Origin: Levilinea saccharolytica
Lineage (GTDB): Bacteria; Chloroflexota; Anaerolineae; Anaerolineales; Anaerolineaceae
Direction of reading: 5' to 3'
DNA: 64,000 nucleotides
NCBI RefSeq assembly: GCF_001306035.1
Contig: NZ_LGCM01000003.1
Coordinates: 62,001 to 126,000, forward strand
The stretch's first letter is position 1. Each line of letters opens with the position of its first letter. The notes below the pieces were generated by a model. The model had not been told where the DNA came from and did no database searches. It worked only from the letters and a program-made list of their open reading frames with translations. Below, in pieces: positions 3,238 to 5,151 of the stretch. Position numbers and translations under genes: made by a program.

Positions 3238-5151
3238 TTAGGGGCAGCTGGTTTTCCCATTGGGGGCAAAGCCCGTGTACTGGCAGGCGTTTTCCGGGGT
3301 CAGCAGAACCATGTCAATGGTTTGCTTTTCGGGTTTGCCAGTGCTGCCGGTGCGAATGAACAGATCCGCCTGGATCACAGCCTGGGTAGCCAGTTCAGCC
3401 ACCGGTTGGAGCGCGCCAGCGTCAATTTCACCCTTCAGGATGGACTCGTTGACGTCGTCAGAACCGTCGAAGCCCACCACGATCACATCCTTGCGGCCCG
3501 CGGCCAGCAAAGCGGCCTGCGCGCCCAGCGCCATGGTATCGTTCCCGCAGATGACGCCCTTGACCTCAGGGTGAGCCTGGAGCAGGCTTTCCATCACGCT
3601 GTAGCCTTCGGTCTGGCTCCAGTTGGCGGTCTGCTGGGCAACCATCTTCATCCCAGAAATCTGATCAAGCACGTCGTGGTAGCCCTGGGAGCGAACATGC
3701 GCGTTGGTGTCGGTGTCCTTGCCGGTCAGTTCGATGTACTCGCCCTTCTCGCCCATCAGTTCAGCAAAGTACTCGGCCAGAATGGTGGCGCCCTGGTAGT
3801 TGTTGGACACGATCTGGGCCACCGCAACGCCTTCTTTGGTGATCTCACGGTCAATCAAGAAGGTGGGGATGCCCGCATCTTTGGCCTTCTGCACAGCGGC
3901 CACGGTGGCATCTGCGCCAGCGTTATCGAGGATGATGGCCGCCGCACCCTTGCCGATGCAGGTTTCGATCAGTTCCATCTGTTTGTTGGCATCGTCATCA
4001 TGGACGAGCTTGAGGGCTTCGTAACCCAGTTCTTCCGCTTTCTTGGCGGCGATTTCCTGTTGGGTGCCAAAGAATGGGTTTTCCACGGGCGGCACGATGA
4101 TGCACATCAACTTCTTGCCAGCCTCAGCCGCAGGAGCAGCGGGCTTGCAGGCTTCCGTTTTCCCATTGGGGGCAAAGCCCGTGTACTGGCAGGCGTTTTC
4201 CGGGGTCAGCAGAACCATGTCAATGGACTGCTTTTCGGGTTTGCCGGTGCTGCCGGTCTTGATGTAAGCATCCGCCTGGACTACGGCCTGGGTAGCCAGT
4301 TCAGCCACCGGTTGGAGCGCGCCAGCGTCAATTTCACCCTTCAGGATGGACTCGTTGACGTCGTCAGAACCGTCGAAGCCCACCACGATCACATCCTTGC
4401 GGCCCGCGGCCAGCAAAGCGGCCTGCGCGCCCAGCGCCATGGTATCGTTCCCGCAGATGACGCCCTTGACCTCAGGGTGAGCCTGGAGCAGGCTTTCCAT
4501 CACGCTGTAGCCTTCGGTCTGGCTCCAGTTGGCGGTCTGCTGGGCAACCATCTTCATCCCAGAAATCTGATCAAGCACGTCGTGGTAGCCCTGGGAGCGA
4601 ACATGCGCGTTGGTGTCGGTGTCCTTGCCGGTCAGTTCGATGTACTCGCCCTTCTCGCCCATCAGTTCAGCAAAGTACTCGGCCAGAATGGTGGCGCCCT
4701 GGTAGTTGTTGGACACGATCTGGGCCACCGCAACGCCTTCTTTGGTGATCTCACGGTCAATCAAGAAGGTGGGGATGCCCGCATCTTTGGCCTTCTGCAC
4801 AGCGGCCACGGTGGCATCTGCGCCAGCGTTATCGAGGATGATGGCCGCCGCACCCTTGCCGATGCAGGTTTCGATCAGTTCCATCTGCTTGTTGGCATCG
4901 TCATCATGGACGAGCTTGAGGGCTTCGTAACCCAGTTCTTCCGCTTTCTTGGCGGCAATTTCCTGCTGGGTGCCAAAGAACGGGTTTTCCACAGGTGGCA
5001 CGATGATGCAGATCAGCTTCTTGGCGGAGCTGGCCGGTTCAGCAGGCGCAGCGGCCTGGGGGGTCGCGGTGGCGGCTGGCTGGCAGGCGCTCAACATCAT
5101 CCCAAAAATCGCGAGCAGACTCAGGATAACAACTAGCTTTTTGTGTGACAT
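3238..5151 (-). CDS. tandem-domain sugar ABC transporter substrate-binding lipoprotein
   Basis: This 637-residue protein carries a lipoprotein signal ([16 protein letters not shown], lipobox Cys at about residue 23) and two complete RbsB-like type I periplasmic binding domains, about residues 45-335 and 347-637. Each begins KL(I/M)[15 protein letters not shown] and ends [14 protein letters not shown]. The two copies are almost identical and are joined by a short Ala/Pro linker ([13 protein letters not shown]). Single-domain members of this family are about 310-340 residues, so this one is doubled. It would present sugar to the permease at 5280..6344. A GAGGAGAAG ribosome binding site precedes the ATG at 5151. 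The ligand is probably the pentose or related sugar used by the operon. A recent internal duplication is certain at the sequence level unless it is an assembly artefact. Confidence 0.92.
3251..4117. repeat. internal duplication, copy encoding the C-terminal binding domain
   Basis: This is one of two 867-bp direct copies with a 906-bp period inside the binding-protein gene. Bases 3380-3981 match 4286-4887 without a mismatch. Both outer edges carry clustered differences. Confidence 0.93.
4157..5023. repeat. internal duplication, copy encoding the N-terminal binding domain
   Basis: This is the partner of 3251-4117. The copies differ by roughly 14 bases in the first 130 bp and by a few at the far edge. 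The 602-bp core is identical, a pattern expected from gene conversion or very recent duplication. Confidence 0.93.

Follow-up and report, generated by a model that had tools for sequence, protein, structure and literature searches.

One reading frame of Levilinea saccharolytica (genome G000) encodes two almost identical sugar-binding domains, and this raises the question of whether the doubling is genuine, how the copies came to be so alike, and what a second equivalent domain would do for uptake. The gene lies in a stretch of 64,000 nucleotides (the window). A preliminary description of this DNA had read the frame as open across both copies, with one signal peptide and a short linker. We found one minus-strand frame of 637 aa with an 11-residue linker and a single N-terminal hydrophobic segment, which bears out that reading, the signal peptide being predicted by eye. 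The gene is laid out as follows.

3238..5151, minus strand: two-domain CUT2 (RbsB-like) substrate-binding lipoprotein, 637 aa (ORF, Pfam; best solved relatives 5IBQ and 4RY0)
5083..5151, minus strand: predicted lipoprotein signal peptide up to Cys23 (LSAC), assigned by eye on the translation
5020..5082, minus strand: spacer rich in Ala/Pro, residues 24-44 (translation)
4147..5019, minus strand: domain D1, residues 45-335, internal tail NGKTEAC (repeat comparison, Pfam, domain boundaries)
4286..4887, minus strand: 602-nt identical core, D1 copy (direct comparison)
4114..4146, minus strand: linker, residues 336-346 (domain boundaries)
3241..4113, minus strand: domain D2, residues 347-637, terminal tail NGKTSCP (repeat comparison, Pfam, domain boundaries)
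3380..3981, minus strand: 602-nt identical core, D2 copy (direct comparison)

The hydrophobic segment ends in LSAC at residues 20-23, which by eye fits the lipobox rule for lipoproteins. Peripla_BP_4 was matched twice within the frame (Pfam); the two stretches together give the whole protein 352.6 bits (curated cut-off 35.1), and each alone scores 181-185 bits. Identity with RbsB itself (NCBIfam NF007936) was rejected; its 325 bits, summed over two domains, lie below the equivalog cut-off of 337. Among solved binding proteins, 5IBQ and 4RY0 come closest (E ~1e-111), and 4RY0, from R. etli (RHE_PF00037), is 64% identical in a Foldseek alignment whose query was a poor AlphaFold model. This whole-protein model was set aside (mean pLDDT 68.5, pTM 0.36, 9-row alignment); its best PDB match superposes badly (rmsd 11.2), and in this otherwise poor model residues 334-344, at the linker, have pLDDT <50. 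Like the single-domain RbsB/CUT2 proteins 4RY0 and 5IBQ, each window domain is a full-length member of the fold family; unlike them, the window protein has two domains per chain instead of one.

On the minus strand, the genes read in the order split transketolase, FGGY kinase, DUF2291, ATPase, permease, binding protein, RbsD/FucU and fucose-isomerase-like protein. The neighbours were placed from the ORF list and family matches.

11105..11974, minus strand: transketolase, N-terminal half
10147..11118, minus strand: transketolase, C-terminal half
8648..10150, minus strand: FGGY carbohydrate kinase (GlpK-like)
7935..8804, minus strand: DUF2291 predicted lipoprotein (Pfam)
6349..7932, minus strand: double ABC ATPase, sugar type
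5280..6449, minus strand: CUT2 permease (BPD_transp_2), a separate ORF, start codon from the ORF list
2651..3109, minus strand: RbsD/FucU sugar mutarotase
1197..2600, minus strand: L-fucose-isomerase-like protein (Fucose_iso_C)

The listed start of the DUF2291 gene is probably too early, since it overlaps the kinase gene. Because of the kinase/transketolase cluster and the nearest solved protein, 5IBQ, we guess that the substrate is D-apiose or a like pentose, with about an even chance of being right. The 5IBQ structure presumably holds D-apiose, and Carter et al. have reportedly worked on apiose. The window's FGGY kinase and split transketolase were assigned at the level of family. In PMC13001218, a screen for D-apiose clusters required a kinase and two transketolase subunits (aplK, aptA, aptB).

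The tandem domains of GlnPQ- and OpuA-type transporters had been offered as the known parallel. The parallel holds for tandem domains as such and is otherwise loose, since the cores are identical here and the binding protein (3238-5151) and the permease (5280-6449) are separate ORFs, not a fusion of the GlnPQ type. According to PMC8025302, the two tandem domains of GlnPQ are linked to the transmembrane domain, differ in specificity and work largely independently. GlnPQ resembles the window protein in having two binding domains in series with a short linker (14 residues in GlnPQ, 11 here), whereas the window protein belongs to a CUT2 sugar system and is predicted to be a lipoprotein of its own, its two cores being identical. 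A difference in specificity between the window's two domains is unlikely, because the 602-nt core is identical. In OpuA, each half of the importer carries one of the two binding domains, whereas in the window both sit on one separate chain. The likeness is that OpuA has two binding domains per transporter that capture the same kind of solute (PMC11065425).

The identity of bases 3380-3981 and 4286-4887, with outer edges that diverge in clusters, was also confirmed. Direct comparison gives 602 nt with 0 mismatches at an offset of 906 nt, a multiple of 3, and the remaining differences between the copies concentrate at the outer edges. Two additional identical runs are found at 3251-3320 (70 nt) and 3983-4050 (68 nt). 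There are 21 mismatches over the 855-nt stretch 3251-4105, and under random placement of mismatches in this stretch the probability of a mismatch-free run of at least 602 nt is 9e-11. Compared over 849 nt of domain, D1 and D2 share 97.4% identity; the window core is 81-84% identical to the cores of its relatives L041 and L047 (L numbers denote loci). The identical core is best explained by recent recombination, since such a core flanked by diverged edges would need a recent exchange confined to the core.

A search for relatives of about 600-650 residues, as the preliminary description had proposed, recovered two-domain relatives of about 640-660 residues, and a strain-specific duplication was rejected because these relatives exist. 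The search returned 53 loci, in which complete two-domain genes were found at L038, L039, L040 (whose domain matches are those of L009, with which it was counted as one gene) and L043. Three domains are read in L042, the last of them spanning a run of N; L041, L044, L045 and L046 have two domains each, one of them cut by the contig end; and the remaining loci are single-domain on the stretch examined or fragments at contig ends. A sample of 396 genomes of the class, 19 of which had a match at 1e-80, adds the two-domain L106 and L107 (~60% identity). The more distant relative L120 (37-40% identity) has three domain hits in one frame. L047, L048 and L049 have a single domain with a TSC tail on a spanning contig, which reflects either domain loss, a collapsed assembly or a tail type that predates the duplication.

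The binding-protein gene adjoins the CUT2 permease and double ATPase genes, and this arrangement is kept in relatives. In 32 loci, as far as the stretches reach, the order is DUF2291, ATPase, permease, binding protein, then RbsD and/or a FucI-like gene, with the exceptions of L069 (transporter genes downstream) and of L055 and L056 (downstream match absent). The same-genus genome G001 yielded no close homologue (best match 1.6e-26, 30% identity; none at 1e-60), and both the operon and the two-domain form are patchy among relatives. The contigs of L045 and L044, both from MAG CH7, share exactly 69 nt where their ends overlap; this could reflect a middle domain common to both, which would then give three domains. 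In Ornatilinea apprima (L047), a C-terminal remnant of a binding protein was seen by eye at ~5180-5297 behind the single-domain gene, and the match of the relatives search runs to 5297.

We next consider the history of the copies, for which 41 domain rows were prepared from the window and its relatives. FastTree used 35 of the 41, leaving out L045_D2, L046_D2, L012, L065, L066 and L069. A tree of the 602 core columns used 19 rows, further leaving out L042, L043, L049 (in which a one-codon insertion shifts the columns) and more distant single-domain rows. In the 602-column tree, D1 and D2 of the same gene pair in the window, where the two rows are identical, and in L041, L038, L009, L039 and L044; the pairing is strongly supported for L041, L009 and L039 and less so for L038 (91/92) and L044 (90/89). 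The copies of L042 and those of L043 also pair up in the 35-row tree. An all-D1 clade (7 rows) and an all-D2 clade (6 rows) were rejected with p-AU of 4e-43 and 3e-60, in tests that left the window's identical rows free and included L009 with its odd base make-up. Within a gene the copies thus resemble each other more than they resemble the domains at the same position in relatives, which is the pattern of concerted evolution. Cores that group by gene suggest that the copies were either homogenised or repeatedly made anew, and the distinction between the two comes from the tails.

In the clade defined by last domains that end in TSC plus one residue, the internal tails are TEAC in the window, TDPC in L041, TGPC in L040, TDPC in L038, TEAC in L039, TDPC in L044 and TEAC in L045 (the last domain's own tail is cut off in L045 and L046). 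The window and six of seven relatives thus have an internal tail that differs from the terminal TSC type, the exception being L046 (TSCE), and the single-domain outgroups have tails like the internal ones (L053 TEAC, L054 TEPC, L059 TEPC). This pattern fits one old duplication in the window and the six relatives, with cores homogenised later, and newer events in L046, L042 and L043. The preliminary description had suggested gene conversion or a very recent duplication. Recent recombination is upheld by the identical core; a recent one-off duplication is probably not the origin of the window gene, since the cores are homogenised gene by gene and the tails differ. As a weak hint of direction, D2 may have overwritten D1: at the sites where D1 and D2 of L041 differ, the window core matches D2 at 32, D1 at 16 and neither at 17 (binomial p 0.03 for 32 vs 16).

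Taken together, we consider it fairly probable, judging from comparisons of sequence, that the product is a CUT2 protein on a lipid anchor whose two equivalent sugar-binding domains stem from an old duplication, their cores having been kept alike by recombination. An old in-frame duplication of spacer plus domain would have created the two-domain gene, and recombination between the repeats, by gene conversion or unequal crossover, would have homogenised the cores repeatedly while tails and linker remained position-specific. The same recombination between in-frame repeats could also alter the number of domains. Against this explanation count the terminal-type internal tail of L046, which is what a new duplication leaves, the single-domain relatives with TSC tails (L047, L048, L049), the lack of the gene in the same-genus genome G001, the dN/dS of 0.42 in the window gene itself, which from few differences does not show selection, and the draft state of the window genome, in which one contig at least (C4) is suspect.

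In a rival that we hold to be possible though clearly less likely, single-domain ancestors were doubled afresh in each lineage and the copies are alike because they are young, without gene conversion. Independent duplications would equally explain why cores group by gene, they would give the internal tail of L046, and they are in keeping with the patchy operon and two-domain form; L042 (sister of the single-domain L061) and L043, which do not belong to the TSC-tail clade, appear to be separate events. However, the window and six of the seven relatives in that clade have an internal tail like that of the outgroups and no copy of the terminal tail, and the identical core with its diverged edges requires a recent exchange confined to the core.

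The two-domain form recurs in other binding proteins. The window genome holds two more, one XylF-like and one CUT1. The XylF-like tandem on contig C6 (L200:10118-12298) has 726 aa from its ATG and an 825-nt identical run, and adjoins xylose- or multi-sugar-type ATPase and permease genes; it is called XylF-like because it passes the TIGR02634 (XylF) cut-off only as a two-domain sum. The CUT1 (SBP_bac_1) tandem L198 (G000 C64:146000-150000) is an 868-aa frame whose copies are 97.5% identical in protein (dN/dS 0.12).

To place these cases, Peripla_BP_4 was counted in a family sample of 41 genomes including that of the window, which gave 131 matches at 1e-45 in 30 genomes, or 115 ORFs with two matches in one frame taken as one gene. 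Sixteen of the 115 ORFs, in 9 genomes, are two-domain, and 2 of the 16 come from the window genome. Identical runs of at least 500 nt were found in 11 of the 16 (988 and 874 nt in G012; 899 in G107; 896 and 589 in G026; 825 and 602 in the window genome; 735 in G004; 712 in Ornatilinea apprima; 602 and 520 in G031), and the other five have runs of 53-218 nt. Long frames of G081 C14 and G002 C322 (L190, L191) held no tandem pair and were left uncounted, and the tandem of G011 C5 (L189), of which one domain only passed 1e-45, stands outside the 16. Many family genomes have no two-domain ORF; the single-contig genome richest in such genes, G018, has 23 matches and 0 two-domain ORFs.

As negative controls, with the threshold again at 1e-45, we used 60 genomes of the phylum without the window genome (74 matches in 27 genomes; 7 of the 60 are from the window's class), 40 of Pseudomonadota (41 matches in 9 genomes) and 40 of Spirochaetota (56 matches in 15 genomes), and 0 two-domain ORFs were found in each. 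The difference is significant against the pooled controls (16/115 vs 0/171, Fisher p 2.4e-7) and against the phylum sample alone (p 2.8e-4), with the reservations that the genomes are non-independent, that the choice of the window's family was not blind and that lists of matches were tallied by eye. The 0/171 control matches agree with the earlier statement that CUT2 proteins are normally single-domain and make the two-domain form unusual. Eight genomes reached via the relatives gave 105 matches and 0 two-domain ORFs, and were kept apart from the controls because two overlap them and one is a Flexilinea of the same class. For CUT1, 109 matches in 8 chosen genomes gave two two-domain frames only (G000 C64, G015 C75), and the two-domain habit looks commoner in CUT2 than in CUT1.

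To ask whether both domains are maintained, pairwise dN/dS between copies was calculated for 29 tandem genes, with the caveat that copies exchanging sequence are non-independent. The ratio was 0.02-0.21 in the 11 genes with dS >0.3 (for example L106 0.07, L107 0.08, L009 0.10, L039 0.20, and L043 0.02 and L038 0.07, both rough at near-saturated dS), which indicates, short of proof, that selection keeps both domains working in diverged tandem genes. The other 18 genes gave 0.09-0.57 from few changes. The window gene, with dN/dS 0.42 and dS 0.088 from few differences, does not show selection.

Under the explanation of an old duplication with homogenised cores, the lipid anchor would hold both domains at the outer face of the membrane; the O. 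apprima genome is consistent with a single membrane (PMC4653792). The two domains would share one sugar as ligand, which may be D-apiose or a pentose related to it; each would close on this sugar and dock in turn, on a presumably flexible linker, with one separate permease/ATPase transporter. The gain would be more binding sites per anchor (two here) or more domain per transcript. The second of these may be the whole benefit, that is, selection for dosage and not for tethering on one anchor, a reading that we regard as tenable but rather unlikely. Identical domains imply identical function, and repeating a domain in frame is a quick way to make more of it. Also in its favour is a gene-level alternative in one Spirochaetota genome, where G618 C6:163315-167803 has four adjacent separate Peripla_BP_4 genes on one strand, the genes and not the domains being multiplied. 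However, separate tandem genes would serve dosage equally, and the linkers of the relatives vary in sequence yet stay short and rich in Ala/Pro/Glu, which suggests that tethering is at least tolerated.

That there is no benefit at all, Anaerolineae merely generating and tolerating in-frame repeats in highly expressed surface proteins, appears improbable. Copy number does differ between relatives (1, 2, possibly 3) and the tandem pattern occurs in several unrelated binding proteins, but the low dN/dS between diverged copies argues that both domains are kept functional in those genes, and near-identity is not general, as the window ORF 19185-20717 looks repeated by eye and is strongly diverged. 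This ORF of 510 aa seems by eye to comprise two diverged P-loop ATPase halves that resemble a helicase loader.

A bolder proposal, which we consider rather unlikely, is that Anaerolineae binding lipoproteins are recombination-tunable arrays, in which near-identical in-frame repeats of 1, 2 or 3 domains grow and shrink by homologous recombination in several transporter families at once; if true, populations would tune the number of sugar-binding sites per anchor with specificity unchanged. To our knowledge, tandem binding domains are known mainly as fusions to the permease, and in the open-access literature we found no description of a tandem free binding-lipoprotein architecture. Members of one bacterial class repeatedly have free binding lipoproteins, mostly CUT2 and sometimes CUT1, in which a near-identical domain occurs two or perhaps three times and the copies are kept alike. 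They offer a natural experiment on how a second identical domain affects uptake, and a bacterial case of concerted evolution among domains within a gene. Long-lasting concerted evolution of prokaryotic paralogues is described for 26 genes with paralogous copies in PMC6053082. The likeness is that copies within a species are more alike than orthologues; the difference is that the copies considered here are domains of a single gene and occur in several families of binding proteins within one class.

An assembly artefact had been a concern of the preliminary description. Such an artefact, whether a one-domain gene that was assembled in duplicate or slightly unlike cores merged into one consensus, is very improbable; it was rejected as the whole explanation, since the copies differ at their edges and two diverged copies are present in independent assemblies, and the assembler may still have merged small differences within the core. 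The draft assembly of the window genome has 65 contigs (completeness 97.65, contamination 4.94). Contigs end inside the matched gene or at most 150 nt from it in 14 of the 53 loci (a raw count, excluding L077, which begins at the gene's own start), as repeats do to assemblies, and this is a warning that assemblies often break within such genes. The repeat of O. apprima is less secure, coming from MiSeq reads assembled with SPAdes (PMC4653792). Also in G000, the 20-kb ends of contig C4 (L195, L196, L197; 121,772 bp) are exact mirror images, and in its middle 20 kb, 18,290 of 20,000 positions agree with the reverse complement of that segment; C4 is a fold-back contig, probably an assembly artefact, or else a very long inverted repeat. 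Against an artefact, two-domain binding proteins also occur in genomes of one and two contigs: G142 has one (98-nt run) and G107 has three, with identical runs of 140, 218 and 899 nt.
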